Below, one piece after another: positions 7,897-33,713 of a DNA stretch of 40,177 nt. This DNA comes from Anaerolineae bacterium (GTDB taxonomy: Bacteria > Chloroflexota > Anaerolineae > Aggregatilineales > Phototrophicaceae). The stretch's first letter is position 1, and each line of letters begins with the position of its first letter. Location: NCBI GenBank assembly GCA_023382675.1, contig JAHDWN010000052.1, positions 1-40,177 of the forward strand, written 5' to 3'. Made by a program: the position numbers and the translations under genes. Below the pieces are notes generated by a model, which saw only the letters and a program-made list of their open reading frames with translations, searched no databases and was not told the DNA's origin.

Positions 7897-7914
7897 TTCG
7901 ACTGTAACGCCAGA

Positions 7915-7947: not shown

Positions 7948-7987
7948 ATCGACTGACACGCTGATCACGGATTGATAACGGCCATCA

Positions 7988-9007
7988 ATGACATTTTTTC
8001 GCTACATTGCCCGACGCGTCCTGTTCACGATTCCAATCTTGCTCGGCATCACATTGGTGTCGTTTCTGATTGCGAATGCCGTGCCAGCCGATCCCATCAA
8101 CGTCAACTTACCGCAGAGCCAGCTCAACAACCCTGAGATCGTGGCGGCTTTCCGCGCTGAATGGGGACTGGACAAAACGCCTGTCGAGCAATATCTGACT
8201 TACCTCGGTAATCTCGCCCAGGGTAATTTAGGGCGCTCGATCAAGACGCGGCAGCCGGTTGCCGAGGATATTGCGCGTTTCCTGCCCGCAACTATCGAAC
8301 TGGCAACGAACGCCACAGCGCTCGGCATCATTCTGGGCGTGGGGCTGGGGGTGGCCTCCGCCGTTTGGCGCAACCAATGGATCGATTTTGCGGCGCGCAC
8401 ACTGGCCGTCATCGGCGTGAGTGTGCCGGTGTTTGTGCTGGCGCTCATCTTCCTGAGTGTCTTCCACGCGCAATTAGGGATTGCGGCGGGGCCGGGACGC
8501 CTCGATTTCACGATGGATGAACCGGCTATGCTCACAGGACTGTTCACAATCGATAGCCTGGCGGCAGGACGGTTGGATATTTTCGCGAACGCGGTCGCGC
8601 ATCTCGTTTTGCCGAGCCTGGTGCTGGCGCTGTACGTCGCCGGTCTGATCAGCCGTGTGACGCGATCTTCGATGCTCGAAGTGCTCGGTATGGATTACAT
8701 GCGCACGGCGCGCGCCAAAGGCGTCCGCGAGTCTCTCGTCGTCATGCGCCACGGGCTGTCGAACGCGCTGATCCCGATTCTGACGGTGATCGGGCTGTCG
8801 TATGGCAATCTGCTGGCCGGGGCGGTGCTCACCGAGTCGATATTTGCCTGGCCGGGAATTGGCCGGTATATGTTCCGGGCGTCCACATCGCAGGATTTTC
8901 CGGCGATTATGGGCGTGAGTCTGCTGATTGCGCTTATCTACGTGGTGGTGAATCTTGTCGTCGACCTCCTCTACTATTTCGTCGATCCGCGTATCCGCGC
9001 GAACTAG
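7988..9007 (+). CDS. ABC transporter permease, DppB/OppB type
   Basis: A 339-residue inner-membrane permease. The N-terminal F-F-R-Y-I-A-R-R-V-L-F-T-I-P-I-L-L-G segment is typical of DppB-like proteins, followed by five further hydrophobic segments. The EAA-type cytoplasmic loop that contacts the ATPase is present (Y-M-R-T-A-R-A-K-G-V then L-S-N-A-L-I-P). It starts at ATG 7988, 91 bases after the binding-protein gene and beyond its terminator. It pairs with the DppC-type permease, whose start lies inside its 3' end. The matching ATPase genes are not in this window. Confidence 0.93.
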   Translation: MTFFRYIARRVLFTIPILLGITLVSFLIANAVPADPINVNLPQSQLNNPEIVAAFRAEWGLDKTPVEQYLTYLGNLAQGNLGRSIKTRQPVAEDIARFLPATIELATNATALGIILGVGLGVASAVWRNQWIDFAARTLAVIGVSVPVFVLALIFLSVFHAQLGIAAGPGRLDFTMDEPAMLTGLFTIDSLAAGRLDIFANAVAHLVLPSLVLALYVAGLISRVTRSSMLEVLGMDYMRTARAKGVRESLVVMRHGLSNALIPILTVIGLSYGNLLAGAVLTESIFAWPGIGRYMFRASTSQDFPAIMGVSLLIALIYVVVNLVVDLLYYFVDPRIRAN

Positions 9008-9836
9008 CCGCGCCGGGCGGATCGCCGGCGTCCTGGGACGCCAACCGCTGCTGGTGGTCGGCATCATTGTCGTCATCATCTGGATCATCGCGGCGCTGCT
9101 GGCTTCGCAGATCGCGCCGTTTGAACCGCTGGCGCAGGATGTGCGCAATCGGGTTCAGCCGCCGAGCGCGGCACATCTCGGCGGCACGGATGAACTGGGG
9201 CGCGATGTCTTTTCGCGCGTGCTCTATGGCGGGCGCATTACCATCCCGGCGGGCATCCTGGTGATTGTGTTTGGCAGCCTGCTCGGTTCTGCCATGGGCG
9301 CGCTCGCCGGCTTTCTGGGCGGCATCTGGGACGAGGTGATCATGCGCATCTCCGAGCTGTTCATGGCCTTTCCCACGATCATCCTGGCGATGGCCGTGAC
9401 GGCAGCGCTCGGCCCGGACATTCGCAATGCGATCATCGCGCTGGTGGTCGTCTGGTGGCCGGGCTACGCGCGCTTGATGCGCGGGCTTGTCCTCAAGGTC
9501 AAGTCTAACGATTACGTCGAAGCGGCTTACTGCGTCGGCGCGCCGAGGCGGTACATCCTGCTGCGCACAATCATCCCCAACTGTATTGCTTCCGTGCTGG
9601 TGATGACGACCCTCGACATCGGCAACGCCATCCTGACGTTTGCCGGTTTGAGCTTCCTGGGGTTGGGGCCTGAACCCACGTCGCCGGAATGGGGGCGCAT
9701 GATTGCCGTCGGCATCGACTATTTCGACCAGTGGTGGACGTGGCTATATCCCGGGTTTGCGATTGCCTCCCTGGTGATCGCGTTCAACTTTATTGGCGAC
9801 GGCCTGCGCGACATTTTTGACCCGCGCCTGCGCTGA
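8955..9836 (+). CDS. ABC transporter permease, DppC/OppC type
   Basis: A 293-residue inner-membrane permease with the DppC-type layout: a polar N-terminus, a first membrane segment, the H-L-G-G-T-D-E-L-G-R-D-V-F-S-R motif after it, and an EAA loop (V-E-A-A-Y-C-V-G-A then I-I-P-N). The frame is closed at 8949, and the first usable start is TTG 8955, giving a 53-base overlap with the dppB-like gene. No later ATG lies before the first membrane segment, so the TTG start is accepted, although its ribosome site (GGTGG region) is weak. The convergent dhaL gene follows 7 bases after its stop. Confidence 0.9.
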   Translation: MSSTSSTISSIRVSARTSRAGRIAGVLGRQPLLVVGIIVVIIWIIAALLASQIAPFEPLAQDVRNRVQPPSAAHLGGTDELGRDVFSRVLYGGRITIPAGILVIVFGSLLGSAMGALAGFLGGIWDEVIMRISELFMAFPTIILAMAVTAALGPDIRNAIIALVVVWWPGYARLMRGLVLKVKSNDYVEAAYCVGAPRRYILLRTIIPNCIASVLVMTTLDIGNAILTFAGLSFLGLGPEPTSPEWGRMIAVGIDYFDQWWTWLYPGFAIASLVIAFNFIGDGLRDIFDPRLR

Positions 9837-19945: not shown

Positions 19946-20911
19946 TCAGGTCGTCGGCGTTTCGCGCGGGCGAATGTAGTTCAGCTGGGAGAGCACCCGC
20001 ACCTGCTCGTCGGCGCGGTAACTGCTGCGCACGAGCGGCCCGCTCTCGACCCACTTGAAGCCGAGTTCCTTGCCAATCGTGACAAAGCGGTCGAACTCCT
20101 CCGGCAGGTAGAAACGTTCTACCGGCAGGTGTTTTTTACTCGGTTGGAGGTACTGCCCGATAGTGAGAATATCCACGCCACGAGCAGCCAGATCGCGCAT
20201 CACGTCAACGACTTCTTCGAATGTTTCGCCGAGGCCGACCATGATGCCGCTTTTCGTCAAAACAAGCGGGTCCAGTTCCTTGGCATTCGCCAGTGTCGTC
20301 ATGGCCCACGCATAATTGTCTTGCGGTTGAACTTTCTTGAACAGGCGCGGCACGGTTTCGACATTGTGATTGAGGATCTCTGGTTGGGCGTCCATCACGA
20401 TCTTGAGCGCATTACGATTGCCTTTGAAGTCCGGGATCAGGACTTCGATGCTGCATCCCGGTTGCAACTGGCGGATGCGCCTGATGACCATAGCGAAGAT
20501 CGGCGCCCCACCGTCGGCGCGCTCATCGCGGTTGACACTGGTGATGACAACGTGGCGCAGATTGAGGGCACGCACAGATTCGGCGACACGATTCGGCTCA
20601 TTCCAGTCAAGCGGATTGGGCCGACCCGTCTTGATGTCGCAGAAACCGCAGGAGCGCGTGCAGGTATCGCCCATCATCAAGAAGGTTGCAGTGCCGCGCC
20701 CCCAGCATTCGCCAAGGTTGGGGCAGAGCGCTTCTTCGCAGACGGTGTTGAGATGCTGGCGGCGCATGAGCGCCTGGACACGCTCGTAGTCTTCTCCGCC
20801 GGGCGCGCGCACTTTGATCCAGGGCGGACGACGGCGTGGATGCTGAGGATCAGGCTGCCATCCGCTGGCATTATCGACGGGGATTGCATCGGGGGTGATC
20901 AAATCGGTCAC
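19946..20911 (-). CDS. lipA: Lipoyl synthase
   Basis: A 321-residue radical SAM enzyme that inserts two sulfurs into protein-bound octanoyl chains to make lipoyl groups for 2-oxoacid dehydrogenases and the glycine cleavage system. The auxiliary cluster cysteines are Cys58, Cys63 and Cys69 (CX4CX5C), the radical SAM cluster is Cys84, Cys88 and Cys91 (CX3CX2C), and the C-terminal R-S-S-Y at 295-298 supplies the serine ligand of the auxiliary cluster. The start is GTG 20911 with GGAG 7 bases upstream. No lipB is adjacent. It lies 64 bases after the membrane-protein gene on the same strand; a TAGAAT -10-like box at 20941-20946 may give it its own promoter. Confidence 0.96.
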
Positions 20912-20975: not shown

Positions 20976-21884
20976 TCAATCCAGGGATAGCGTCGGCGAC
21001 AAACAGTCAACCTCGTCCAGCCGTCGACACGCGAGATGCCATAAAACTCTGCACGACGCTTCGCGCGCCAGCGTCACCAACGCGACGAGCACAATCGTCA
21101 TCACCGTTTGCGTTTCGGTCTGCAAGGTGTTTATCAGTGTGCGCATGGGCTGTAGTTGAAAGATGAGCGTGATCGCCGTTATAGGCAGAGCGTAGACGCC
21201 GAACTGCACGATTTGAAAGATGAAAAATCCGGCCAATTGTGATTCGGTACGCCGCCCGGCCAACAGCGCGCCCAATATGCCTGAGAGCGCTGCACAACTC
21301 ATCCCGTGGATATAATCGAGATACAGCAGGCCGAGCATCGCTGCTATCTGAACGATAATCAGGATAGACCCTGATTCAAACCGGTATCGATTCGACTCCA
21401 AAATGGCGAGCATCAGGAATAGCCCCAGCGCCGCGGCAATCACTGCAATCGCCCATTTGAGGCTGCGCAGTCCCCGGCGCAGCAGTCTCCATCGATGAAA
21501 TGTCGCTTTGCACAATGACCACATGACGCCTGTCGGCCCGGAGGGAGTGACTGCCAATAGATCCCACTGACGCTTACGCCGATGGATAGCGATTCCATCT
21601 GCCACGCGCATTGCCCACATGCTGCCGTCCACAGTGGTGCTGAGGATGAGAATGAAACCAAAGATGATGGGGATGCCACCGAGAGCGACGACAAATGCCC
21701 ACGTGGTAAACGATGACGTCGAAATCAAACAGAGTGTCGAGCAGATCAGCGTGCCCATGGCAAAGGTGATCAAACGGATCACGGGGAGTGAGAGTTGGTC
21801 AGTTTCTGATTTGATCGCGAATTGGAAAATCGGATTCTGGGTAGAGGCTACGGACAATGCGAGCCAGATCTTGCGTGCGATCAT
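20976..21884 (-). CDS. Multi-spanning membrane protein, HPIF paralogue A1
   Basis: A 302-residue protein with about six hydrophobic segments. Near the N-terminus is Q-N-P-I-F, matching the [HN]P[IV]F motif of the three paralogues in this window. After the second hydrophobic block comes a basic loop, R-R-K-R-Q-W-D-L-L-A-V-T-P-S-G-P, which resembles the R-E-x-G-T-x-x-L-L-x-x-T-P loop of ABC-2 type permeases. The C-terminus R-E-A-S-C-R-V-L and D-E-V-D is shared with A2. ATG 21884 overlaps the A2 stop (ATGA); the open frame to 22346 is only a shadow of A2. Likely a membrane complex with A2; no ATPase is encoded nearby. Function unknown. Confidence 0.75.
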   Translation of the reverse strand: MIARKIWLALSVASTQNPIFQFAIKSETDQLSLPVIRLITFAMGTLICSTLCLISTSSFTTWAFVVALGGIPIIFGFILILSTTVDGSMWAMRVADGIAIHRRKRQWDLLAVTPSGPTGVMWSLCKATFHRWRLLRRGLRSLKWAIAVIAAALGLFLMLAILESNRYRFESGSILIIVQIAAMLGLLYLDYIHGMSCAALSGILGALLAGRRTESQLAGFFIFQIVQFGVYALPITAITLIFQLQPMRTLINTLQTETQTVMTIVLVALVTLAREASCRVLWHLACRRLDEVDCLSPTLSLD

Positions 21885-22795
21885 ACTGGGGCTACCCCTA
21901 ACAAGCTTTCGTCGATTTCTCCCACGCGCCTTCGCGTCATGATCATAAGCAGACGGGTTACTCCTTCCCGGATACCGATCAAACAGGCGAGGAACAGCCC
22001 ATAGACTGACAGTAAGGAAAAGCCTTCGAGGGCGAATTGGTGGGAAAGTTGCGGCAGCGCGATGAAGAGCATGACGTATGCCAGAAACAGATAACCGATC
22101 TGAATGCCTGTGAACATTGCCATGGCGACCAACGACGCTTCGACCTGGCGGCTGGCGACCGTTGGCGCCAGCATCCCGACCAGCACAGCCGAAACCAACG
22201 ATGCCATCAGCTCGAAATGTAGCGCCAGGCCGGTCAAGATCACGCCGATGCCTGCCGATAGGAAATTCAGGGCATAGGGCGAAGGGGTCTGATCGAGGAT
22301 CAGGCTGAGGAAGATCGTACCGGCGGTGGCAATCACTAATGCCCACAGCAAGACACGAAAGCGCCGTGTGCGTGACCGAAACGCCTGATCTGCATGGATA
22401 TAGGCACAGGCGATCATCCAGGCGACGCTTCCCGGCCCGGGAGGCGTCAGTGCCAGCAAATCCTGTGTGCCGCGCTCACGTCCACGCGCAATCATCCCTG
22501 CGATCCCCATCGCCCATTGCAGACCCCAAAAGGCGCCGCTGAACAGCAGACTCAAGATGACGTAGAGAAAAACCAGGAACACCATCAAATAGATCAGAAA
22601 TACGAACAGGAGCGTGAGCAGTGCCAGGAAGAGGTAGCGAACGATCTGCCGCACCCATTTAGGAATGCCTAACGCATCCCAGCGCAAGATCGCGTTCTCT
22701 GGCCGGTGACGCAGGCGCAGCGTTTGCTTGAAGATTGGATGCGCATGGATAACTGAGGTGAAACGGAGTCCACGCCAGAGCTTGAAGGTGATCAT
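21881..22795 (-). CDS. Multi-spanning membrane protein, HPIF paralogue A2
   Basis: A 304-residue protein with six or more hydrophobic segments and a basic N-terminus. It has A-H-P-I-F-K-Q-T at residues 18-25 and the loop R-E-R-G-T-Q-D-L-L-A-L-T-P-P-G-P-G, the closest of the four paralogues to the ABC-2 permease loop. It shares W-A-M-x-x-A before that loop and the C-terminal R-E-G-V-T-R-L-L plus G-E-I-D with A1. Its ATG overlaps the beta-propeller gene stop and its stop overlaps the A1 start, so all three are translationally coupled. Inferred to be an ABC-2-like transmembrane subunit; an ATPase would have to come from elsewhere. Confidence 0.77.
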   Translation of the reverse strand: MITFKLWRGLRFTSVIHAHPIFKQTLRLRHRPENAILRWDALGIPKWVRQIVRYLFLALLTLLFVFLIYLMVFLVFLYVILSLLFSGAFWGLQWAMGIAGMIARGRERGTQDLLALTPPGPGSVAWMIACAYIHADQAFRSRTRRFRVLLWALVIATAGTIFLSLILDQTPSPYALNFLSAGIGVILTGLALHFELMASLVSAVLVGMLAPTVASRQVEASLVAMAMFTGIQIGYLFLAYVMLFIALPQLSHQFALEGFSLLSVYGLFLACLIGIREGVTRLLMIMTRRRVGEIDESLLGVAPV

Positions 22796-23934
22796 CCCGG
22801 TGGCAGCCCCCAGGCGGCTACATCAGGCGCGCCGAGTGCGGGATATATGCCTTCACTAAGGATGGTGAAGATGCCCGTTTCGATACTGAGTGCCAGAAGG
22901 AGATTGGGTTTTTCGTCACCCGGTATGTCTGCGCCGAAAGCGATATGCGTGCTATCAGGCGACCATACCAGCCGGGGCGGGTTGGGGGTGTTGGTTTCGG
23001 TAGTGAAGTGACAGTATTTCTGCGTGGCTCCGGACTCGACATCGACGATGTGGATCGTGGCACCAAGCGCTGTCTCAACCGGGTCGAAGCCGCCGAGATC
23101 GACCAGCCAGAAGGCGATCTCTCGGCCATCTGGCGACCAGCGCAGTTCGCCCGCCGCCAACCCATTGATGCGTGCAGTGCCATACGATTCGAGCAGTCGG
23201 GTGAGTTGTACAACGGAGCCATCGGCGGGCGTTGCGACAAGGAGTTCGCTGCCGTCTGGCAGGTCGTCGTCGTTGGTGAAGATCGGCGCGACATAGGCGA
23301 AGCGCGTGCCATCCGGCGACCAGCCATAATCATCAAAATAGGCCAGATCGACGCCCAGGTCGATTCGCTGCGTGCGATCACTCAGATTCACCAATGCCCG
23401 CTCGAAGCGGTCGCCACGGGCTTCCAAGACCAGACCCCAAGTGCCGCCCGGCTGTACAGATACGACCCCCGCCGCATCGATGGGATCGCGTGCTCCATCG
23501 CTCCTGAGTAGGTAGGCATTTCGTCCCGGTGTCCACACGAGCCAGGTATCTGCCGACCACCAATCCACGGTTGAGGCGTACTCGCTCACCAGAGAACGCT
23601 GCGTGCCGTCCAGTCGCATCCGGTTATAGGCGTTCGTCAGGTCGTTGAAGTAGAGCAGCCAACGCATATCCGGGGACAAACGGCAGTTATAGGTGCAAGG
23701 AAAAGTTTCTGGCAGCGGATAACGCCGGTCACGCTCGACATCGTAGACCCAGAGGTTATAGCGGTCGAAGCTCGTCAAGATGATGCCGCCGGTTTCGTAG
23801 GTCGGGCCGCGCACTTCGATGCCCGTCACCGGGCACAGGTTGCGGATGCCAATCTGGGCTTTCACCGTTGGCGCGACCAGGAGAACGAGACTACAGCCTA
23901 TGATCATGAGTAAGACTGGCAGGCGGCGATACAT
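22792..23934 (-). CDS. Secreted TolB/WD40-like beta-propeller protein
   Basis: A 380-residue protein with an N-terminal signal peptide (L-L-M-I-I-G-C-S-L-V-L-L then P-T-V-K-A-Q). The rest is a series of beta-propeller blades with PD40-like motifs: C-R-L-S-P-D-M-R-W-L-L-Y, Y-G-W-S-P-D-G-T-R-F-A-Y, L-R-W-S-P-D-G-R-E-I-A-F and L-V-W-S-P-D-S-T-H-I-A-F. The repeated W-S-P-D-G fits TolB-type propellers, which usually serve as binding platforms. AAGGA precedes the ATG. Its stop overlaps the start of membrane protein A2, so it may be the outer-face partner of the A1/A2 pair. Ligand unknown. Confidence 0.8.
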   Translation of the reverse strand: MYRRLPVLLMIIGCSLVLLVAPTVKAQIGIRNLCPVTGIEVRGPTYETGGIILTSFDRYNLWVYDVERDRRYPLPETFPCTYNCRLSPDMRWLLYFNDLTNAYNRMRLDGTQRSLVSEYASTVDWWSADTWLVWTPGRNAYLLRSDGARDPIDAAGVVSVQPGGTWGLVLEARGDRFERALVNLSDRTQRIDLGVDLAYFDDYGWSPDGTRFAYVAPIFTNDDDLPDGSELLVATPADGSVVQLTRLLESYGTARINGLAAGELRWSPDGREIAFWLVDLGGFDPVETALGATIHIVDVESGATQKYCHFTTETNTPNPPRLVWSPDSTHIAFGADIPGDEKPNLLLALSIETGIFTILSEGIYPALGAPDVAAWGLPPG

Positions 23935-24075
23935 CAGCGGTTCCTTATCGAGAAGTGATCAGTGATGCGTAACGGTTAATGAGTATAGATAATACACTTT
24001 GTGGCTTAAGGTTGAACGCCATGCCGAATCTCAATTGATGGCGACAAGGGCTCAAGCATAGCGTATCCTGGCCGC

Positions 24076-24855
24076 TCAGCCATACAGCGCTTGCCAACGC
24101 TTCTCCGCCGAATCGCCCGCTTTTTCGATGCCGTCGATGCGCCAGATGTGGACGGCGCTGCGACGGTCGTCGGCGCCGCCATCGGCGATACACAGGTGGT
24201 CGAACGCCGCCAGACAATCCATCGGACGCCGCAACCGTACGCCAGGGAAGTAAGACATTTGCTGCGTCAGCGTGGCTGTGTCGGTAGTGCCAAGGGTGTG
24301 CAGATGGGCAACGTAAAGCGGCACGGTGTCGTAATCATAGACGTAGCCATCGTGATCGCGCTTCGGCACAGGAAGTGCATAGGCGATGCGCAGACGACGA
24401 CAGACACAGTAGACTCTGGAGGTAATTGGCGCTTCGGCCAGGGAATAGCTTTCTGCCAGTCCCAGAACCATGGGTGCGGGCACGGGAAGGTTGAGCGACG
24501 CGGCCAGGAATACCTTTTCTTCGAGCGTCAATGGATGGACGAGTGAGTCGATCTGCTCGTCTGCGCGAATGCCCCGGTGGCGCGCGCCAGCGAAGTTCAG
24601 CGACATGGTATGCCATGCTGTGTATGGATGTACAATATCAGTGGGCAATTCGAGCGGATTCGTGTGACCCAGGCCTTCATCGACTGCCGCAATTAGCTTA
24701 CCCTCGAGAGTGTGTGCTGCCTGTGCTACCAGGCCGTCTTCGCCGTAGATTTCTTCGCTGTAGAGGGTGAGATCGCCCCCCAGGCCGAGTAAACAACAAT
24801 CACTTGAATGCTGCAAGGAAATGCTGGTGAGGTAGGTGAACGTGGCCTCTGACAT
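24076..24855 (-). CDS. Conserved-looking protein of unknown function
   Basis: I do not recognise this 259-residue protein. It has no signal peptide or membrane segment and looks soluble. It is rich in aromatic and histidine residues, for example D-I-V-H-P-Y-T-A-W-H-T near the middle and a late F-D-H-L-C-I-A-D-G-G then V-H-I-W-R-I-D, which faintly recalls the last strand of a propeller. Three in-frame starts exist: GTG 24876, ATG 24870 and ATG 24855; the last has a weak GAGA-AGGT site and is listed. It lies on the same strand as the beta-propeller gene, 141 bases upstream of it, and is divergent from the response regulator. Confidence 0.6.
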   Translation of the reverse strand: MSEATFTYLTSISLQHSSDCCLLGLGGDLTLYSEEIYGEDGLVAQAAHTLEGKLIAAVDEGLGHTNPLELPTDIVHPYTAWHTMSLNFAGARHRGIRADEQIDSLVHPLTLEEKVFLAASLNLPVPAPMVLGLAESYSLAEAPITSRVYCVCRRLRIAYALPVPKRDHDGYVYDYDTVPLYVAHLHTLGTTDTATLTQQMSYFPGVRLRRPMDCLAAFDHLCIADGGADDRRSAVHIWRIDGIEKAGDSAEKRWQALYG

Positions 24856-24909
24856 ACCTGCGTCTCTCATCCGCACACTCTAACGTTAAGTCTCAGGTCG
24901 AAAACAGTT

Positions 24910-24918
24910 TGCTATAAT
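24910..24918 (+). promoter_or_regulatory. Extended -10 promoter of the response-regulator operon
   Basis: TGC directly before a consensus TATAAT (24913-24918) forms an extended -10; the -35 is weak. The start would be near 24925, giving a leader of about 44 nt before ATG 24969. It lies in the 113-base gap between the divergent genes. Confidence 0.6.
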
Positions 24919-24968
24919 GAAGGCGAAGCTCAATTTTTCTCATTGTAGTCTTTTATAAGGCGGCGGGG

Positions 24969-25616
24969 ATGAGCAAACGATCCCAATCGGTGTCAACCAG
25001 TCAAGAGTATGCATCCGACTCGGAAGACATCCAGATGATGCGTGAGCCGCACATTAAGCGCCACACTGCAAGTCTGCCGAGCGCCGCCCTGGACGTCGGA
25101 GCTGGCGCGCCCCACTCGGAAACGGGCGTGGCCGCCGCCGTTGTGGTGTCGGCAGATGGCAAGGACAATGACGACCGGCAAGACGCTCCGCTAGCAGTCG
25201 GTGAAGCTCATCCTGCGACCGCAGTTTCTGCCAGGCCGGTTGTGTTGCTGGTCGAAGACACACATGAGATCGCGGAAGTCATCGTAGCCGTGCTTTCGCG
25301 GGTCAAGATCGAGACGGTTCATGAAAGTCATGGCGCCAGGGCGCTGGATCGCTTCAATACCATGAAACCCGACGTGATCTTGCTCGACATCGGTCTGCCC
25401 GACATTTCCGGCTGGCAGTTCCTTGAGAACTTGAAAGCCCACACTCAAGCGACGGGCAGAGGCATACCGCCGGTGATCGTGATCTCAGCCTTTGGTGATC
25501 CGGCGAACCGTCTGGTAGGGAAATTTCAGGGCGTACATGATTATTTGATCAAGCCCTTTACTGCCGCAGAAGTCGAGCAGGTCGTGACGAAAGCGTTAGC
25601 AACACGCGGCGAATGA
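24969..25616 (+). CDS. Receiver-only response regulator with long N-terminal extension
   Basis: A 215-residue protein. Residues 90-213 form a CheY-like receiver: acidic pocket Glu96-Asp97 (L-V-E-D), phospho-acceptor Asp140 (I-L-L-D-I-G-L-P-D), Ser173 and Lys195 (Y-L-I-K-P-F). There is no DNA-binding or enzymatic output domain. Residues 1-88 are low in hydrophobic residues and probably disordered, which is unusual for a single-domain regulator. AAGG-rich sequence precedes ATG 24969. No histidine kinase is encoded nearby. The gene overlaps the TPR lipoprotein gene by 4 bases (ATGA), so the regulator may act on proteins of this operon rather than on DNA. Confidence 0.88.
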   Translation: MSKRSQSVSTSQEYASDSEDIQMMREPHIKRHTASLPSAALDVGAGAPHSETGVAAAVVVSADGKDNDDRQDAPLAVGEAHPATAVSARPVVLLVEDTHEIAEVIVAVLSRVKIETVHESHGARALDRFNTMKPDVILLDIGLPDISGWQFLENLKAHTQATGRGIPPVIVISAFGDPANRLVGKFQGVHDYLIKPFTAAEVEQVVTKALATRGE

Positions 25617-26911
25617 AGCATCGGGTCAGAATATCAATCTGCGTCGGCTTGCTGCTGATTCTTGCATCGTGCGCGTCTGCTGCAGCGGACGTGCCTCTTG
25701 CTTCACTCGATCCTCAATTACTACTAGAGCGCGTAGATACCTATCGACGGTTGAACCGCCCCATCCAGGCCCTGCATATTGTCGAAACAGTGGCGGCGCG
25801 TGACGGCTGGACGCCGTCGCTGGCAGGCATCGCCGGTACGCTGCGGCGCGCCACTGGCGACCTGGAAGGGGCAGTCGCTGCCTGGAGTCTGATCCCATCG
25901 CCGGATAGCGGCCTGCTGCGATCTGTGGCGCAAACCCAGATCGAGTTGGGCGATTGGCCGGAAGCCGCTGAGACACTGGTCAGATTGATGGACATTGCGC
26001 CGGACGAACGCTGGGCTGCCCTCAATTACGGGTTATTGATGGCATCCATCGATCCGCAGGCGGCCACCTACGCGCTACAGACGGCGGCAGAAGACAATGC
26101 TTATCGCACCTTGGCAAATGTGATACTCGATACGATCAGCAGAAACCAGGATCAGCCCCTGCTGCCGATGCGGGTCGGGGTTGCGCTGGCTGATCAGAGC
26201 CAGTGGGCGTTTGCCGAAGTTGCCTTCGCACGCGCCGCCGATCTGAATGATCCGTATGCCGAAGCGCTGGCCTATCTGGGGTTGGCACGTGATCGTCAGG
26301 GCAAAGACGGTGGTGACTCGATTTTGCGGGCGGTGGCACTGGAGCCAGGTAACGCGCGCGTGCGCTATTTGCAGGGCGTTCATCTTCGCGCTGAGGGGGA
26401 TGCGACGGGTGCTATCGATGCGCTGGCACAGGCCGCCGCGCTCGATCCGCAAAACCCAGCCCATTACGCGGAACTGGCGCAAGCTTACCGTGATAACCAC
26501 GATCTGACTCAGGCTGAGAACTGGCTGTTGACGGCTGTCGCGGTATCCAACAACGCGCCACGTTATCAGGAGATGCTCGCCCTGTTTTATGCGGATGAAG
26601 GTGTCAATCTGACCACCAGCGGTCTTGAGGCGCTGGAACAGACCTTGACCGGTCTCCCAGACAGCGCCGACGCGCGTGCTGGCTATGGCTGGGCGCTGTA
26701 TACTGCCGGGGAAGTTGAGCGCGGTAAAGCGATCATCGAAGAAGTCCTTCAGCGCGATTCCGGCAATACGCGTGCGCTGTACTTTAAAGCCCAGATATTG
26801 CTGGATTCGGGCGTGGAAGACGAGGCACTGGCGTTGTTAGAGCGGGTCGCCAGCGGCACGTCGGATTTTGCCGTGCCCGCGCGCACCTTGCTCGACGACC
26901 TGCGGAGATAA
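25613..26911 (+). CDS. TPR-repeat lipoprotein
   Basis: A 432-residue protein with a lipoprotein signal: basic start, hydrophobic core and lipobox L-A-S-C with Cys20 as the lipidated residue. The remainder is helical tetratricopeptide-like repeats (for example A-L-A-Y-L-G-L-A-R-D-R, A-R-V-R-Y-L-Q-G-V-H-L-R-A-E-G-D, D-P-Q-N-P-A-H-Y-A-E-L-A-Q-A-Y and T-R-A-L-Y-F-K-A-Q-I-L), a scaffold for protein contacts on the outer face of the membrane. It overlaps the response-regulator gene and is followed after 5 bases by the first of two paired membrane proteins, so it is probably their partner, as the beta-propeller is in the opposite gene set. Confidence 0.85.
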   Translation: MKHRVRISICVGLLLILASCASAAADVPLASLDPQLLLERVDTYRRLNRPIQALHIVETVAARDGWTPSLAGIAGTLRRATGDLEGAVAAWSLIPSPDSGLLRSVAQTQIELGDWPEAAETLVRLMDIAPDERWAALNYGLLMASIDPQAATYALQTAAEDNAYRTLANVILDTISRNQDQPLLPMRVGVALADQSQWAFAEVAFARAADLNDPYAEALAYLGLARDRQGKDGGDSILRAVALEPGNARVRYLQGVHLRAEGDATGAIDALAQAAALDPQNPAHYAELAQAYRDNHDLTQAENWLLTAVAVSNNAPRYQEMLALFYADEGVNLTTSGLEALEQTLTGLPDSADARAGYGWALYTAGEVERGKAIIEEVLQRDSGNTRALYFKAQILLDSGVEDEALALLERVASGTSDFAVPARTLLDDLRR

Positions 26912-26916
26912 GCGCC

Positions 26917-27822
26917 GTGCTCAAGTTCCGCCCGATGATCAATCCTGTGCGGCTGTCTATCGCCCGACATCCGATCTTTCGTCTGGAACGGCGGCGCGTG
27001 CACTGGGCTGCTGGAAACACGGACTACCTGCCATCTGCCTTGCGCTGGGTAGGCCTGTCCTGCCTGCTCATCGTCGGCTTCTCGTGGCTTGCTGAAGCCG
27101 TGGCTGCCAGAAATAGCGTGGCGCCATACCCTGAAGCGTGGCAAGGCGACATTCTCATACTCGCATTCGGCCTTGTTTCGCTGGCCGGGCTGCTGCTTGA
27201 TTTTGCCTGTCTTGTGCTGGCAGGTGGCGCGATCAACAGGGAGATCACTTCCGGTCGATGGATCTTACTCTGCCTGACCCCGTTGAGTGACGAGAGCATC
27301 ATGCAAGCGAAACATGCGGGCGTGCGCTTGCGCTGCTGGCCCTGGCTGCATGTTCTGGTCGGGATGCGCTGTGGCATTGGAGTTTTGCTTGTTCTCTGGG
27401 GTCTTGATGAGTTGCGCTATGTCTCAGCATTGGAAGCTTTTCTGGCGATCGGGCTTTTCATGCTGGCGGTTGTGCCTTATGTGATCGAGCCATTCTGGCG
27501 CATCGAGGCGATGACCACCGCCGGCCTGTTCTTTTCAACACTCAATCGCACCACAACGTTGACAGTGCTGACGGCTGCTCTGGGGTTGTTTGCACTCTGG
27601 CTGGCACAAGCTGTGTTCGTCGGCTCAGTGAGCTATGCCGTACTGCTCACCCTGAACACGCTCTATGAAAGCCTGACCGAATTTCGCGGCTTATGGGTCA
27701 CTTTTCTCTTTACCGGCCTGACTGTAGGTTGCTTCTGGTTGCTCAATTATGGTTTTTATGAACAGCTTGAGCGCCGGAGCTGGCGGCGGCTACTGCGCCG
27801 CCTCGCGCGTTTCGACGTTTAG
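26917..27822 (+). CDS. Multi-spanning membrane protein, HPIF paralogue B1
   Basis: A 301-residue protein with about six hydrophobic segments. It has R-H-P-I-F-R-L-E-R-R-R at residues 17-27 and a loop S-G-R-W-I-L-L-C-L-T-P-L-S-D, similar to ABC-2 permease loops. With B2 it shares I-E-P-F-W-R-I and W-L-A-Q-A-V-F-V-G-S-V. The start is GTG 26917 with GGAG 8 bases upstream; the first 30 residues align without gaps to B2 begun at 27858, which supports this start. It follows the TPR lipoprotein gene by 5 bases. Transport or sensing at the membrane is inferred; no ATPase is near. Confidence 0.77.
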   Translation: MLKFRPMINPVRLSIARHPIFRLERRRVHWAAGNTDYLPSALRWVGLSCLLIVGFSWLAEAVAARNSVAPYPEAWQGDILILAFGLVSLAGLLLDFACLVLAGGAINREITSGRWILLCLTPLSDESIMQAKHAGVRLRCWPWLHVLVGMRCGIGVLLVLWGLDELRYVSALEAFLAIGLFMLAVVPYVIEPFWRIEAMTTAGLFFSTLNRTTTLTVLTAALGLFALWLAQAVFVGSVSYAVLLTLNTLYESLTEFRGLWVTFLFTGLTVGCFWLLNYGFYEQLERRSWRRLLRRLARFDV

Positions 27823-27857
27823 TGCGTTGTGACAGGTATCAAAGGTCTGATGGCGTG

Positions 27858-28793
27858 GCGAAGGTATTCTCGGCGGTCAATTTACTGGGGCAGACGATTG
27901 CGGCGCATCCGGTCTTCGTCGCTGAGGCGCGGCGCAGTCGTTGGGCGGTGACGCGAAAATCGTTTCGCCAAACGTCCATGCGCATCTTTCTAGTGGCGAT
28001 GATCGCGGCGCTGGTCATCTGGGGATTGATCTCACTGCTGGCAATGGTTTCGCAGCGTGCCGATCCATGGCTCCAGGTCAACCTGGATGAACAGGATATC
28101 TATGCTCTAATGTTGATCGCCAGTTTTCTGGGCGGTCTATGGCTGGATTACCACAGCCTGTCGGCGTCTATCAACGCAGTGAGTGGCGACATTACCGGCG
28201 GACGCTGGGATTTGCTGCGCCTGACCGCGCTCAACGACAGTGGGTTAATCGCGGCCAAGCACGCCGTCAGTCAACTGCGCGTCTGGCGTCGGCTCCTTGC
28301 CATCGTGGCGATCCGCCTCGCTCTCGCGCTCATCGGCCTGATCATCCTGCTGCGCGACATAACCCGGATCCCCGATGGTGACGTGATGGTGTCGGCAGTC
28401 GGGGCCATCGTCGGCGGGCTAGCAGTCACATTCTTGTTGACAATTCTGTATTTGTTCGAGCCATTCTGGCGTGTTCGCGCGATCACGGCCTTTGGGGTTT
28501 ACGTTTCGGTACGTGAGCGCAACACGGCGTCTGCGCTGCTGGCCGCCATTCTTGGCCTGGGTGGGATGTGGCTGGCGCAGGCGATCTTGTTGGGGTCAGT
28601 TGCGATGGGGTTGGCGTTCGCGGTCGTGCCGCTCCTGTTAGGTGTGTCGGCAGTCGGCTCCAGTTACCTGTTCTCGTTGTTCTGTAACGGCCTTTTCATT
28701 ATCCTGTTCATATCGTCTGTCTATGGCTTCCACCACTTGGTCGAGCGCTGGAGTTTGCGCCAGGCTCAGCGGCGGCTGAAACTGCTCAACTGA
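27858..28793 (+). CDS. Multi-spanning membrane protein, HPIF paralogue B2
   Basis: A 311-residue protein with about six hydrophobic segments, closely related to B1: A-H-P-V-F-V-A-E-A-R-R at residues 17-27, loop G-G-R-W-D-L-L-R-L-T-A-L-N-D, then A-A-K-H-A, F-E-P-F-W-R-V and W-L-A-Q-A-I-L-L-G-S-V. A GTG at 27822, overlapping the B1 stop, is also in frame, but GTG 27858 has AAAGG upstream and makes the N-terminus match B1 residue for residue, so it is preferred. B1 and B2 probably form a heterodimer. Last gene of the response-regulator operon. Function unknown. Confidence 0.77.
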   Translation, partial: AKVFSAVNLLGQTIAAHPVFVAEARRSRWAVTRKSFRQTSMRIFLVAMIAALVIWGLISLLAMVSQRADPWLQVNLDEQDIYALMLIASFLGGLWLDYHSLSASINAVSGDITGGRWDLLRLTALNDSGLIAAKHAVSQLRVWRRLLAIVAIRLALALIGLIILLRDITRIPDGDVMVSAVGAIVGGLAVTFLLTILYLFEPFWRVRAITAFGVYVSVRERNTASALLAAILGLGGMWLAQAILLGSVAMGLAFAVVPLLLGVSAVGSSYLFSLFCNGLFIILFISSVYGFHHLVERWSLRQAQRRLKLLN

Positions 28794-28860: not shown

Positions 28861-29604
28861 TTGCGACGGTTACTCACACTGGCAGTGCTCGGCGCGGCAC
28901 TGCTGATTTTGTTCTACGTGAATCAACAGGTGCAGAATTGGCATTACGTTGTCAGCGGCGAACCGGGGCAGCTCCTTTATCTCGCTGTGTTCGATGATGG
29001 CGCGGCGTCTGACTGGCAGCAATACCCGGGACGCGTGTCGGCGCAGGTCACAGAGGGGCAATTCCGCATCAGCAACGGCGTTTCGGGCAACGTCGCTTTT
29101 TCGGTCACCGAGCCATACTTTGCCGATTTCGATTTGCGCGTCCAGGCGCAGGCTGTAGGTGGCCCGCTCGATAACGGCTACGGGGTGATCTTTCGTTACC
29201 GCGACAACGACAATTTCTATGAGTTTCTAGTCAGCAGCGATGGGTTCTATCGCGTGAACCGGGTGCTGAACGGTGCGCAGCGTGAGCTGAGCACCTGGGT
29301 CGATTCTCCCACTGTGCGCCAGGGATTGAATGAAATCAATTACCTGCGTGTGGTGGCGCGGGGAGACCAATTCGCGTTTTATGTCAACAATGAGCGCGTG
29401 TCGCTGTGCATCCCCTCCGATCCGGAGGCGCTCAGCACCTATCGGACTGGGCTTGGCTGTATCGGCGGCACGATGCAGGACACCCTGACCGATGCTAGCC
29501 TGAATACGGGCCGGATCGGTGTCGCGGCGAGGTCGCTCGGAGAACCGGATGTCGAGGCGGCGTTCGACAATCTGATCGTCTTCAGCCCGGAGACCGCAGA
29601 GTGA
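28861..29604 (+). CDS. Membrane-anchored LamG/DUF1080-like protein
   Basis: A 247-residue protein with one N-terminal membrane segment (about residues 4-22, L-L-T-L-A-V-L-G-A-A-L-L-I-L-F-Y) and an extracytoplasmic jelly-roll domain. Motifs of the concanavalin-like/DUF1080 type are D-L-R-V-Q-A-Q-A, N-G-Y-G-V-I-F-R-Y-R-D-N-D-N-F-Y-E-F, N-Y-L-R-V-V-A-R-G-D-Q-F and a closing A-F-D-N-L-I-V-F. Such domains bind or cleave sugars; no catalytic residues are identifiable. The start is TTG with AGGTGA 4 bases upstream. It overlaps the methylthiotransferase gene by 4 bases (GTGA) and opens a long housekeeping operon, an odd place for a sugar-binding protein. Confidence 0.75.
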   Translation: MRRLLTLAVLGAALLILFYVNQQVQNWHYVVSGEPGQLLYLAVFDDGAASDWQQYPGRVSAQVTEGQFRISNGVSGNVAFSVTEPYFADFDLRVQAQAVGGPLDNGYGVIFRYRDNDNFYEFLVSSDGFYRVNRVLNGAQRELSTWVDSPTVRQGLNEINYLRVVARGDQFAFYVNNERVSLCIPSDPEALSTYRTGLGCIGGTMQDTLTDASLNTGRIGVAARSLGEPDVEAAFDNLIVFSPETAE

Positions 29605-30890
29605 ATGTCCATTTGCGGATGCTCGGCTGCCGCTTGAATCAGGCAGAGATCGAGCGTATGGGGCGTCAACTGGCAGCGCAGGGGCATACGGTCGTCGATG
29701 ATGTCACACAAGCCGATCAGATCATCGTCAATACGTGCGCCGTGACCCACGACGCCGTGCGTGGCAGCCGCAAGCTCGTCCGCCAGATGCACCGCACAAA
29801 CGACTCCGCAGCGATCACCGTCACCGGCTGTTACGCGCAGTTGGAGCCAGAAGCACTGCGGACTCTGCCGGGTGTAACGCGCGTGGTCGACAACCAGGAA
29901 AAAGATCGCCTGGTTGAAACGCTGACCGGACAGCCGCTGCCTGATTACGACATCGAACCCGTCTCGCGCCATTTGCGGGCAGTGAGCGGCGGGCGGACGC
30001 GCGCCTTCGTCAAAGTGCAGGATGGCTGTGACAATGCCTGCACATTTTGCGTCACGACCGTGGCGCGTGGGGCAGGGCGCAGCCGCACGGTTGCGGATGT
30101 GTTGGACGAGATACGCCTGCTCCTGGCGATGGGGTATCAAGAGGTGGTGCTCACGGGTGTCCATCTGGGGAGCTATGGGCACGACCTGGGGGATGCCCAG
30201 GGCTTGCTGCATCTGGTACAGGCGATCTTCGCGGAAACAGACGTGCCGCGCCTACGCCTTTCGTCGCTTGAACCCTGGGATCTGACGCCTGAGTTCTTCG
30301 ATCTCTGGCAGGATCCGCGCCTGTGCCGGCATCTGCACTTACCTTTGCAAAGCGGCTGCGACGCAACCCTGCGCCGCATGGCCCGCCGGACGAATCAGGC
30401 GCAGTTCAGTGCCCTCGTGCAGGAAGCCCGGCAGCGCTCGCCAGAGGTGTGCATCACGACCGATGTCATCGTTGGCTTTCCTGGCGAAACCGATGAGGAA
30501 TTCGAAACGAGCTTTGCCTTCATCGAATCGATGGACTTTGCCGGATTGCACGTCTTCCGTTACAGCAAGCGTCCGGGAACGGCAGCGGCGCGGATGCGCG
30601 GTCACGTTGCCGAGGCAGTCAGCCGTGAACGCAGCACCCGGCTGATGGCCTATGCCGATGCGCAGGCAAGGCGCTACGCGGAAAGATTCGCCGGGCAAGC
30701 GCTCGATGTGCTCTGGGAGCAGGTTGCAGGGGCGACCGAGCGAGGATTTGTCAACATTGGGTATACTGATAACTACATTCGAGTTCGCTGTATTCACCCG
30801 CGCGCACTGACGAATCACATCATCCGCGCCCAACTGGATGCCTATGATGTGGAGCGGCAGCAGATGCGTGGGATAGCTATTCTGGATTGA
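29601..30890 (+). CDS. mtaB: tRNA threonylcarbamoyladenosine methylthiotransferase (MtaB-like)
   Basis: A 429-residue radical SAM methylthiotransferase that adds a methylthio group to t6A37 of tRNAs reading ANN codons. The UPF0004 domain has Cys10 (G-C-R-L-N-Q), Cys46 (N-T-C-A-V-T) and Cys77 (G-C-Y-A-Q); the radical SAM cluster is Cys143, Cys147 and Cys150 (C-D-N-A-C-T-F-C). G-C-R-L-N-Q and N-T-C-A-V-T, rather than G-C-Q-M-N, separate MtaB from MiaB. A TRAM-like end is present but short. It starts with GTG overlapping the previous stop. The following yqeY and pgpH genes fit a translation and RNA maintenance operon. Confidence 0.92.
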   Translation: MNVHLRMLGCRLNQAEIERMGRQLAAQGHTVVDDVTQADQIIVNTCAVTHDAVRGSRKLVRQMHRTNDSAAITVTGCYAQLEPEALRTLPGVTRVVDNQEKDRLVETLTGQPLPDYDIEPVSRHLRAVSGGRTRAFVKVQDGCDNACTFCVTTVARGAGRSRTVADVLDEIRLLLAMGYQEVVLTGVHLGSYGHDLGDAQGLLHLVQAIFAETDVPRLRLSSLEPWDLTPEFFDLWQDPRLCRHLHLPLQSGCDATLRRMARRTNQAQFSALVQEARQRSPEVCITTDVIVGFPGETDEEFETSFAFIESMDFAGLHVFRYSKRPGTAAARMRGHVAEAVSRERSTRLMAYADAQARRYAERFAGQALDVLWEQVAGATERGFVNIGYTDNYIRVRCIHPRALTNHIIRAQLDAYDVERQQMRGIAILD

Positions 30891-30901
30891 AGGCAGATCC
30901 C

Positions 30902-31348
30902 ATGAGCGATCCCAAAGCGAAGTTGCAGGAAGCCTTGAAGGAAGCGATGGTGGCAAAGGACACCAAGCGCCGCGATGTGATCCGTATGACATTGAGCGAA
31001 ATCAAGCAGGTCGAGATCGATGAGCGCAAGACACTGGCCCCGGACGAGGTGCTGACTGTCTTGCAGCGCGAGGTCAAGAAGCGCCGCGAAAGCATCGAGG
31101 AGGCAGCTAAAGCCGGTCGCACCGACCTTGCCGAAGATGCCGAAGCGGAGATCAAGATTCTGGAAACATTCTTACCTGCTCAACTGACGCGCGAAGCGAT
31201 TGTGGCGCTGGCAAGCGCTGCGATTGCCGAGAGCGGCGCGACCTCTGCGAAAGATATGGGCAAAGTCATGGGCGTGCTGATGCCGAAGGTCAAGGGACAG
31301 GCAGATGGCAAGCTCGTGAATGAAGTCGTCCGCGAATTGTTGAGCTAA
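30902..31348 (+). CDS. yqeY: GatB/YqeY domain protein
   Basis: A 148-residue protein of the YqeY family, which resembles the tRNA-binding tail domain of the GatB amidotransferase subunit. The typical N-terminal D-T-K-R-R-D-V-I-R-M-T-L-S-E-I-K-Q helix and the late K-D-M-G-K-V-M-G-V-L-M-P-K-V-K-G-Q-A-D-G-K segment (family end pattern M-G-x-V-M-x-x-x-M-x-x-x-x-G-x-x-D-G) are present. The exact cellular role is not established; a link to tRNA aminoacylation is assumed. ATG 30902 is preferred to an in-frame TTG at 30887. It lies 11 bases after mtaB. Confidence 0.93.
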   Translation: MSDPKAKLQEALKEAMVAKDTKRRDVIRMTLSEIKQVEIDERKTLAPDEVLTVLQREVKKRRESIEEAAKAGRTDLAEDAEAEIKILETFLPAQLTREAIVALASAAIAESGATSAKDMGKVMGVLMPKVKGQADGKLVNEVVRELLS

Positions 31349-31352
31349 ATTG

Positions 31353-33713
31353 ATGGCACGCGCGTTACGCCGCTGGTCTGATACGTGGTTGAGCCGCCCG
31401 AATTGGGCGACTCCGCAAATGCTGCGTAACTTGAATGTGGTGGCGCTGGCGTTGCTCTTTGTCTTGCTGGTGACGGTGATCCTTTCGCTCGACACCATTT
31501 TCCCGGCAGGCAATCAAACGGCTGATTTGCGGATTGGCTCGGTCGTTGATGAAGACATCCGCGCGCCGCGCAGCCTGACCTACGTCAGCCGTGCACTGAC
31601 TGAACGGGCACGCCAGGCGGCTGTCGAAGCCGTCGCGCCCATCTACGATCCGCCCGATCCGACTGTGGCACGTCAGCAGCTCGATCTTACCCGTGCTATC
31701 CTGACCTATATCACCAATGTGCGGCAAGACCCGTATGGCACGCGGTCGCAAAAAGTCGGCGATCTCAAGATGATCGCGGCGTTCGATCTGCCGGAAGTGT
31801 TGTTACAGCGCATCATCGAGATCGATGAGGATGCATGGCATGCGATTGAAGGCGAGATCATCAACGTTCTGGAACGGGTGATGCGCGAGCCGATTCGTGA
31901 GCCTGATCTTGTCAGCGTGCGCGATCAACTGCCGATGCAGGTAAGCGTCCGTTTCGATTCCCGTCAGGCTGACATTATCGTCGCTATTCTCGAAGACACC
32001 GTCCGCCCAAATCAATTCGAAAACCCGGATGCGACTGAAACTGCTCGCCAGGAAGCCGCCAACGCAACCGAGGACGAGACACGCAGTTTTGCCCAGGGGC
32101 AGGTGATTGTGCGTGCGGGAACGCGGATCGACGAAATCGACTACGAGACGCTTCAGGCATTCGGGCTGCTTCAGCCGCAGGATCTCGGCGGACAAATCCT
32201 GCTCAGATCGCTACTCGCCAGCCTGACGATTCTTCTGAGTGGTGGCCTGTATATCATGCGTTTCCAGCCGGTGCTGCGGCGTGATTTTCAAATGCTGGCG
32301 CTGTTGGTAACGCTTTTCTTGATCGCTTTATTAGGCGCAAAGATTTTCGCCGGGAGCGGCCAATTTTACCTGTACCCGGCAGCAGCCGTGGCGTTGTTGT
32401 TTGTGTCTTTCGTGCCGGTCGAAGTGGCGATCATCGGCGGTCTCTCACTCGCCTTGCTTTACGGCATCATCACTGGTGGCTCGCTGGAAGCGATGTCACT
32501 GGCGGGCTTTGGCAGCCTGGTGGGCGCTGCCTCGTTGAGGCGGGCCGAGCGCGTCAACACCTTCTTTATCGCTGGTTTGATGATCAGCTTCGTGAATTTG
32601 CTGGTCGTGGTCATGTTCAATATCGACGCCTTGAGCAACGGCGAAAGTGGCCGGTTGGGCGTGTTCGTGCTCTTCAGCGTGATCAATGGTATTTTCGCGG
32701 CTGCGGTTGCGCTTGCCGGTATGTACGTCGTGACTCTGGGCTTCAATCTGCCCACGAGTTTGAAACTGGTCGAGTTGAGTCAACCAAATCAGGCGCTGTT
32801 GCAGCGGCTGCTGCGGGAAGCTCCAGGCACGTATCAGCATTCGCTTCAGGTCGCCAATCTGAGCGAGCAGGCGGCGCTGGCGTTGGGGGCGAATGCGCAG
32901 TTGGTGCGTGTGGCCGCGCTCTATCACGATATTGGCAAGATGCTCAACCCGGCGTTTTTCATTGAAAACCAGGCCGAGGGGGTCAACCCGCACGATCAGC
33001 TCAATGATCCGGTGCGCAGTGCTGCGATCATCTTGAGTCACGTGCCGGATGGCGACCGTCTGGCAAAGCAGTATCGATTGCCCGCGCGCATCCGCGATTT
33101 TATTCTCGAGCATCACGGCACGACGGGGGTCGGCTATTTCTATAAGCAGGCGCTCGACCAGGCGGAAGAGCCGGATACCGTAGACATCGAGCAATTTCGC
33201 TATCCGGGGCCGCGCCCGCGCAGCCGAGAAACGGCCATTCTGATGCTGGCGGATAGCTGCGAGAGCACCGTTCGGGCGCGGAAACCGACGACCCGGCAGC
33301 AGATCGCCGATATTGTCGACGAGATGGTTGACATACGGCTGCGCGATGGCCAGATGGACGACGCGGATCTCACGACGCGCGACCTGAAGACGATTCGCAC
33401 GATTTTCGTTGAAATGCTCCAGGCCGTTTTCCACCCGCGCATCAATTATCCGACGTTGCCCTCATCGCGTCGCCCTGGAATTGAAACGCCTCCCGCGGGC
33501 CGCAGTGTCGTTGATGATCGGAGCGAGCCGGAGCCTGTCCCTGAAGTGCAGGCTGTCCCCAACGCGCCGCCTGACGACACGCCACTGCCTGACGTACCGC
33601 CGCTGCGCCGCGTCGCGAAATCAACCCAAGAAACGAAGGCCGTCAACATCAACAGTGACAAAGACTCTGAGCACAGCCCCTCGGAGATGGAGCAGGGCGG
33701 CAATGGCACATGA
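31353..33713 (+). CDS. 7TMR-HD family phosphodiesterase (PgpH-like)
   Basis: A 786-residue membrane protein: one N-terminal membrane segment (about 30-50), an extracytoplasmic domain (about 55-285), a block of seven membrane segments (about 290-465) and a cytoplasmic HD domain. Metal ligands are His496 (T-Y-Q-H-S), His525-Asp526 (Y-H-D-I-G-K), a histidine in S-H-V-P-D-G, His587/His588 and Asp634 (L-A-D-S). PgpH in Listeria hydrolyses cyclic di-AMP, the likely activity here. The last 85 or so residues are proline- and acid-rich and look disordered, longer than I would expect. ybeY starts 11 bases before its stop. No di-adenylate cyclase gene is in view. Confidence 0.9.
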   Translation: MARALRRWSDTWLSRPNWATPQMLRNLNVVALALLFVLLVTVILSLDTIFPAGNQTADLRIGSVVDEDIRAPRSLTYVSRALTERARQAAVEAVAPIYDPPDPTVARQQLDLTRAILTYITNVRQDPYGTRSQKVGDLKMIAAFDLPEVLLQRIIEIDEDAWHAIEGEIINVLERVMREPIREPDLVSVRDQLPMQVSVRFDSRQADIIVAILEDTVRPNQFENPDATETARQEAANATEDETRSFAQGQVIVRAGTRIDEIDYETLQAFGLLQPQDLGGQILLRSLLASLTILLSGGLYIMRFQPVLRRDFQMLALLVTLFLIALLGAKIFAGSGQFYLYPAAAVALLFVSFVPVEVAIIGGLSLALLYGIITGGSLEAMSLAGFGSLVGAASLRRAERVNTFFIAGLMISFVNLLVVVMFNIDALSNGESGRLGVFVLFSVINGIFAAAVALAGMYVVTLGFNLPTSLKLVELSQPNQALLQRLLREAPGTYQHSLQVANLSEQAALALGANAQLVRVAALYHDIGKMLNPAFFIENQAEGVNPHDQLNDPVRSAAIILSHVPDGDRLAKQYRLPARIRDFILEHHGTTGVGYFYKQALDQAEEPDTVDIEQFRYPGPRPRSRETAILMLADSCESTVRARKPTTRQQIADIVDEMVDIRLRDGQMDDADLTTRDLKTIRTIFVEMLQAVFHPRINYPTLPSSRRPGIETPPAGRSVVDDRSEPEPVPEVQAVPNAPPDDTPLPDVPPLRRVAKSTQETKAVNINSDKDSEHSPSEMEQGGNGT

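Follow-up and report, generated by a model that had tools for sequence, protein, structure and literature searches.

Two divergent gene runs in the window, i.e. the 40,177-nucleotide (nt) contig JAHDWN010000052.1 of an Anaerolineae bacterium (assembly GCA_023382675.1), code for four membrane proteins, A1 and A2 on the minus strand and B1 and B2 on the plus strand. By predicted fold and by homology, A and B are divergent permeases of the ABC-2 type (ABC, ATP-binding cassette). We tentatively read them as orphan permease pairs which may be driven in trans by a common ABC-2 ATPase, may act on surface proteins and may be controlled by a receiver domain. This is a possible reading, although we stop short of calling it probable.

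The source genome comprises 6.4 Mb in 110 contigs; the window sits on contig C52. The order on the minus strand is P0, a beta-propeller protein (PROP), A2, A1 and, after 64 nt, the lipoyl synthase gene LipA. The plus strand carries a response regulator (RR), a tetratricopeptide repeat protein (TPR), B1, B2 and, 67 nt further on, a lectin-like protein followed by MtaB-like, YqeY and 7TM-HD genes. Thus, the two runs are flanked by LipA on one side and the MtaB-like gene on the other. Comparisons were made over 56 loci, 55 found by a PROP profile in a named genome collection plus the window. PROP is present by construction and many loci are cut by contig ends. Most of the genomes are draft metagenome-assembled genomes. 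Genes were called with a simple longest-open-reading-frame script and helices counted with a hydropathy window. This procedure undercounts, as in L077, where one A gene was called but the genome search detected two A stretches.

Relationship of the four membrane proteins

A1 (20976..21884, minus strand, 302 amino acids (aa)) and A2 (21881..22795, minus strand, 304 aa) share 30% identity over 223 aa (BLAST E 2.3e-15), and both belong to family A, whose profile matches A1. B1 (26917..27822, plus strand, 301 aa) and B2 (27822..28793, plus strand, 323 aa) share 32% identity over 310 aa (E 2.0e-35). BLAST detected no similarity between A and B; the best E was only 1.2. When profiles of 24 A and 21 B rows were aligned, the families matched over 207 columns with a probability of 96.2 and an E of 2.4e-9. 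A larger comparison of 85 A and 22 B rows gave a probability of 96.5 (E 8.1e-10), and eight unrelated control alignments from the same loci stayed at or below 0.9%. By these sequence comparisons A1 and A2 are clear paralogues, as are B1 and B2, and the A and B families are distantly related. The mutual similarity of all four proteins, on which the sequence-only reading of this DNA had staked its case, was thereby confirmed.

In a quick tree, of which we use only the family separation and the matching of array positions since 50 of 104 inner branches were open, end branches were long and the careful search was unfinished, the A and B families separate. Array positions have one-to-one counterparts in some groups of related loci (L087, L103 and L104; L089, L099 and L100). 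This indicated that the arrays predate the split of those genomes.

A and B as divergent ABC-2 permeases

Structure prediction was run on single A2 and B2 chains. The AlphaFold models were confident, with ABC-2-type subunits as leading matches. A2, from an 85-row alignment, had a predicted local distance difference test (pLDDT) value of 90.0 and a predicted template modelling score (pTM) of 0.85; for B2, from a 22-row alignment, these were 88.8 and 0.86. Both models have short N-terminal helices, long helices fitting six membrane spans and a short helix past the second span. This corresponds to the elbow helix, the six helices and the coupling helix between helices 2 and 3 of ABC-2 permeases, the matches for A being the weaker ones. 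With Foldseek, rows 1-9 for B2 were all NosDFY/NosFY chains (best E 4.9e-3, probability 1.00), as were rows 1-7 for A2 (best E 0.072). In a second structure comparison NosFY again came out on top for B2 (Z 13.5 over 221 residues, root-mean-square deviation 5.6); 48 of its 50 rows were named ABC transporters or CcmABCD and two were titled mycobacterial efflux pump. The same comparison placed A2 with a chain of LptB2FGC (Z 10.7), NosFY (10.3), ABCA1 (9.2) and CcmABCD (9.2). Taken over both models, NosFY/NosDFY, ABCG, ABCA, CcmABCD and LptB2FGC chains were matched.

A Z below about 13 may reflect a common helical-bundle arrangement, and we do not rest the identity of A and B on the fold alone. 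It might be argued that they are membrane proteins of another kind which share just this arrangement, in keeping with three MATE rows among the 50 for A2 and with the failure to reach any Pfam cut-off. However, the sequence profiles agree with the fold, nearly all rows for B2 are ABC transporters or CcmABCD, and the motifs described below are shared with ATPase-linked permeases. We consider such a chance likeness very improbable.

The profiles were aligned with 11 permeases from ATPase-bearing loci (hhalign). B reached a probability of 98.9 (E 1.2e-17), a value not independent of selection because the B profile had served to find most of these loci; A, for which the value is more independent, reached 96.1 (E 3e-9). 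The eight controls remained at 0.9% or less. Among 297 genomes of the class the B profile matched 60, many of the matches being limited to the helix 1-2-loop part. Twenty stretches were fetched around such matches or B-like genes: eight contained an ATPase with Walker-A and signature motifs (L196, L197, L199-L201, L203, L204, L207), five a Walker-A motif only (L193, L195, L198, L202, L208) and seven neither. Outside the order, the B relative with the highest score in this sample is that of L196, whose gene overlaps one for an ABC ATPase (Pfam ABC_tran, E 1.3e-29) by 4 nt. This ATPase-linked permease likewise falls below the Pfam ABC2_membrane gathering cut-off, as does B1 for ABC2_membrane_4 (E 0.018). 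The cut-off is a criterion for recognition and not a defining trait. Searches of the A, B and P0 profiles against the sequences of solved structures yielded nothing with an E below 0.4.

The loop after helix 2 reads GRWDLLRLT in B and G.YDLL..TP in A. It is paralleled by ERERQTYDLLRTT in the canonical ABC-2 permease of the source genome. This loop motif and the N-terminal NP/HP motif of A and B match those of the ATPase-linked permeases. The sequence-only reading had taken the membrane proteins for an undescribed kind; the ABC-2 fold of the A2 and B2 models and the profiles, which place A and B with ABC-2 permeases, speak against this. Matches to GspL, SecE, MtN3 or other transport and secretion components were below cut-offs, and no Pfam family was matched by more than one A or B member.

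The ATPase question

The loop after the second span, residues ~101-120 in A2 and ~119-138 in B2, is the presumed ATPase-docking loop. When mean Jensen-Shannon conservation was computed over segments whose bounds were drawn by hand from the models, this loop ranked first in both families (A: 0.458, mean 0.338, 12 segments; B: 0.562, mean 0.455, 14 segments). This is expected if an ATPase still binds. With a profile of 10 ATPases (E <=1e-10) no ABC ATPase was detected inside the block span in any of the 56 loci, many of which end at contig borders; seven had one elsewhere in the fetched stretch. Because no ATPase was found in the block, it does not constitute a complete ABC exporter.

Two places where an ATPase might have been hidden were examined. 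In several relatives a Walker-A gene of ~390 aa lies beside LipA. The one copy scanned, in L053 (14293-15477, between LipA and a sigma factor gene), is DnaB_C-like (E 1.1e-23), and the window has no such gene. A search for an orphan ABC-2 ATPase in the source genome covered 20 stretches. By crude gene calls a multi-helix neighbour seemed to be present in every one except L277 and L278, and no candidate stood out.

By likeness alone, a first candidate for a shared ATPase is G000:C34:19892-20833 of the source genome. Its identity with the L196 ATPase is 59%, compared with 39% for the runner-up, and it belongs to a canonical ABC-2 cluster. That cluster (L201, G000:C34:15000-28000) comprises a large anchored protein, the ATPase, a permease of 447 aa with an extra N-terminal part and a further anchored protein.

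The sharing of an ATPase is documented for importers. In Staphylococcus aureus at least four importers are reported to depend on FhuC for energy; three of them (Hts, Sir, Isd) have no ATPase of their own, and the coupling helix of IsdF plays a role (PMC10147376). In our reading, A1 would most likely pair with A2 and B1 with B2 as transmembrane subunits of the ABC-2 exporter kind. Both pairs would dock a common ABC-2-type ATPase, encoded elsewhere in the genome, via the conserved loop after helix 2. Driven by it, they would either export a cell-surface component or pass a conformational force to the co-encoded surface proteins. The A pair might work with the propeller, the B pair with the TPR and lectin-like proteins. 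Once phosphorylated by a kinase from another locus, the single-domain RR may tune the system from the cytoplasm.

Median identities between loci were 80% for LipA, 48% for PROP, 45.5% for RR, 45% for the lectin-like protein, 39% for P0 and 36% for TPR; the medians of 25.5% for B and 23% for A mix paralogues. Compared with the closest genome, G002, the window showed identities of 43% (B1), 55% (A1), 63% (A2), 64% (P0), 72% (B2), 73% (TPR and lectin-like protein), 76% (RR), 78% (PROP) and 93% (LipA). Thus B1, A1 and A2 diverged fastest, B2 did not. The faster divergence of these three than of most neighbours would suit proteins which kept the ABC-2 fold and lost transport, i.e. ATPase-free proteins that anchor the propeller and TPR to the membrane or act as sensors for them, as a scaffold or as a relay to the RR. 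The absence of an ABC ATPase from all 56 blocks and a copy number of A which varies from 0 to 6 point in the same direction. However, the slowest-evolving segment is just the presumed docking loop, which a scaffold would have little reason to keep, and the canonical permease of the source genome bears a similar loop motif. On balance we regard a loss of transport as unlikely.

Conservation of the gene block

A block of the form LipA - A(0-6) - propeller - P0 / RR - TPR - B(0-3) - lectin-like - MtaB - YqeY - 7TM-HD recurs across the window's Anaerolineae family. The divergent arrangement, which the sequence-only reading had pointed out, is seen in many genomes. Within the 56 loci A was present in 42, B in 18 (leaving out L096, which is below the score used), P0 in 23, RR and TPR in 41 each (both in 40), the lectin-like gene in 33 and LipA in 37. 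The copy number ranged from 0 to 6 for A and from 0 to 3 for B.

Twenty-seven loci contain PROP, RR, TPR, the lectin-like gene and LipA. A is found in 21 of these and B in 13; 12 have A only, four B only, nine both and two neither. As to co-occurrence of the eight genes from A1 to B2, the block as such recurs in the family, yet A and B are jointly present in only nine of the 27 loci. The notion that the two gene sets are built on the four membrane proteins is not compatible with these numbers.

Remnants of lost copies were sought by tblastn. In L081, L108, L112, L113 and L120 the stretch from TPR to the lectin-like gene bore no convincing trace of a decayed B (best E 0.005). Among nine loci without A six gave nothing at E 0.01; the remaining three had short matches (32-58 aa, E 2e-5 to 0.003) which lay inside PROP (L090, L123) or B (L078).

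On the level of genomes, PROP was detected at E <=1e-30 in 62 of 154 genomes from the order; the window's family accounts for 58 and another family for four. P0 was found in 39 of the 154, all but one in the window's family. Of the 98 family genomes 86 had A at E <=1e-3 and 84 at 1e-20 (hand count). B was present in 60 at 1e-3 and in 28 at 1e-25 (hand count), the weaker matches, which were not checked one by one, often covering the helix 1-2-loop part only. The 55 loci bear Chloroflexota names except L090 (Pleurocapsa minor) and L099 (Bacteroidetes). Their blocks are of the same kind, and the two labels are probably naming or binning errors.

Two further settings of A genes were encountered. 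In L219 a protein of 582 aa (7550-9298) with a match to the middle domain of hydrazine synthase alpha (E 1.5e-12) is located between two A genes. In L074 (7594-8544), L218 (6628-7539) and L225 an A-like permease gene comes after a run, in appearance a dipeptide-type operon, of two multi-helix genes and two ABC ATPases.

Do the P0-PROP-A and RR-TPR-B sets constitute one system? Their shared position is the main link which makes them a candidate for a single system. Alternatively, PROP with A, and RR-TPR with B and the lectin-like gene, are two separate systems in an old chromosomal neighborhood beside housekeeping genes. The independent variation of A and B over the 27 loci fits this, as do PROP-A pairs without RR-TPR in the fetched stretch (L116, L121) and the wider distribution of A than of PROP in the family. 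Yet RR lies in the stretch of PROP in 41 of 56 loci, a set collected by way of PROP in which several of the remaining loci are truncated, and for unrelated systems the homology of A and B would be a coincidence. Therefore, two separate systems appear doubtful to us.

Partner proteins and gene arrangement

PROP (22792..23934, minus strand, 380 aa) is a TolB-like beta-propeller (Pfam PD40, E 8.3e-6) with an N-terminal hydrophobic stretch; the N-terminus is hydrophobic in 48 of 55 homologues. Against solved structures the best matches of its profile were TolB chains and related propellers (E 3.9e-4 to 5e-3). Apart from these weak TolB matches no Tol or Pal label was assigned among the window proteins scanned, which were a subset of its genes. 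P0 (24076..24876, minus strand, 266 aa) adjoins PROP and is divergent from RR. It is conserved and has no Pfam family above cut-off; a strongly hydrophobic window was absent from its first 60 residues in all 23 homologues.

RR (24969..25616, plus strand) has a receiver domain at residues 92-206 (Pfam Response_reg E 2e-19) preceded by a stretch of ~90 aa. The phosphorylation residues E96, D97, D140 and K195 are kept in 36 of 36 homologues, and position 173 is T in 35 and S in one. The acidic pocket, the phospho-accepting aspartate, the T/S and the lysine of response regulators are thus all in place, which corroborates the receiver domain reported from the sequence alone. No output domain was matched. 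In residues 1-90 the TG at 52-53 is invariant and the QD at 71-72 nearly so; this resembles a short binding motif.

TPR (25613..26911, plus strand, 432 aa; Pfam TPR_19 E 2.3e-21) has the lipobox LASC in the window. The label TPR lipoprotein is right for this copy but not for the family: the motif search detected a lipobox in six of 41 homologues (it missed LLGC in L078), and many of the others displayed a plain hydrophobic stretch at the N-terminus. The lectin-like protein (28861..29604, plus strand) belongs to the 3-keto-disaccharide hydrolase family (PF06439, E 1.5e-7); its N-terminus is hydrophobic in 33 of 33 homologues.

LipA (19946..20911, minus strand; Pfam LIAS_N and Radical_SAM) borders the block. 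The MtaB-like, YqeY and 7TM-HD genes occupy 29601..33713 on the plus strand (Pfam UPF0004/Radical_SAM, YqeY, 7TMR-HDED and HD, and gene order), the last being of the PgpH type. The gene coordinates given earlier agreed with our gene calls. The eight-gene region was in place, although P0 had not been named and the plus-strand run continues beyond B2. Start/stop overlaps had been said to couple most of the genes. They are present at four of six junctions (PROP/A2, A2/A1 and RR/TPR 4 nt each, B1/B2 1 nt); gaps of 5 nt (TPR-B1) and 141 nt (P0-PROP) separate the others. Downstream, the lectin-like/MtaB and MtaB/YqeY junctions overlap by 4 nt and 7TM-HD follows after 1 nt. We claim no promoter, as one promoter-like match was found compared with 4.2 expected in shuffles.

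Comparison with known systems

Among the closest known systems is NosDFY. The Foldseek lists of A2 and B2 both begin with chains of 246-275 residues, presumably NosY. NosDFY has an ABC-2 membrane subunit with an outside partner, the extracytoplasmic NosD, just as A is linked to the propeller. In contrast, NosY has its ATPase NosF and none was found near A or B in the 56 loci. Further, the outside proteins of the block are different ones, i.e. propeller, TPR and lectin-like, and different paralogues stand in a row. Canonical ABC-2 clusters of Chloroflexota (L199, L200, L203, L207, L231 and L201) have permeases which are profile-related to B and A and share with them an NP motif at the N-terminus and a loop motif containing DLL. 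Unlike the block, these clusters contain an ABC ATPase; the remaining genes in them look like MoxR and DUF58 proteins. PROP resembles the TolB-type propeller in that TolB chains are among its best solved-structure matches; unlike a TolB proper the match is partial and weak, and no Tol-Pal gene was labelled among the scanned proteins. The S. aureus importers are similar in that permease operons without an ATPase use a shared one and residues of the coupling helix are reported to matter (PMC10147376). They differ as importers from ABC-2 exporters, and their shared ATPase, FhuC, is known, the one here being a candidate only.

A narrow-term search of open-licence papers, judged by titles and opening lines of abstracts, returned no description of the A/B block and nothing tying NosDFY to mechanotransmission. 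None of A, B and P0 reaches the cut-off of a Pfam family. The gene block is apparently undescribed, in line with the earlier remark that no system of such make-up is known.

Several observations weigh against orphan ABC-2 pairs powered in trans. No Foldseek E was below 0.001 for either model, A reaching only 0.072. The Pfam ABC-2 cut-off was reached by none of 22 B and none of 85 A proteins. Against a five-sequence subset of canonical permeases A scored a probability of 65.5 over 20 columns only, compared with 96.7 for B. The source genome has 162 ATPase matches, some being parts of one gene, and none was singled out or tied to A or B. In the narrow open-licence search no shared ATPase of ABC-2 exporters was found described; FhuC serves importers. 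L081 and L113 retain propeller, RR, TPR and the lectin-like gene without A or B, and this persistence indicates that the sets are not built on the membrane proteins. In genus g29 (34 genomes, hand count) A was present at 1e-20 in 32 and strong PROP in one; 31 had A without strong PROP. Therefore, A does not depend on PROP and, together with L081 and L113, the partners do not need each other everywhere.

Implications

If A and B are orphan ABC-2 pairs energised by a shared ATPase, the protein families A, B and P0, which are covered by no Pfam model, would acquire a testable role. ATPase sharing as documented for importers would be extended to ABC-2 exporters. ABC-2 subunits would multiply in tandem beside a conserved surface protein, and the block would be a good place for asking about the role of an outside partner. 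In its broadest form, which we hold to be improbable, one Anaerolineae lineage would possess a previously undescribed surface apparatus: arrays of up to six divergent orphan ABC-2 permeases in a row, served by one housekeeping ABC-2 ATPase, would act as exchangeable motors for a conserved complex of propeller, TPR and lectin-like proteins under the control of a receiver.

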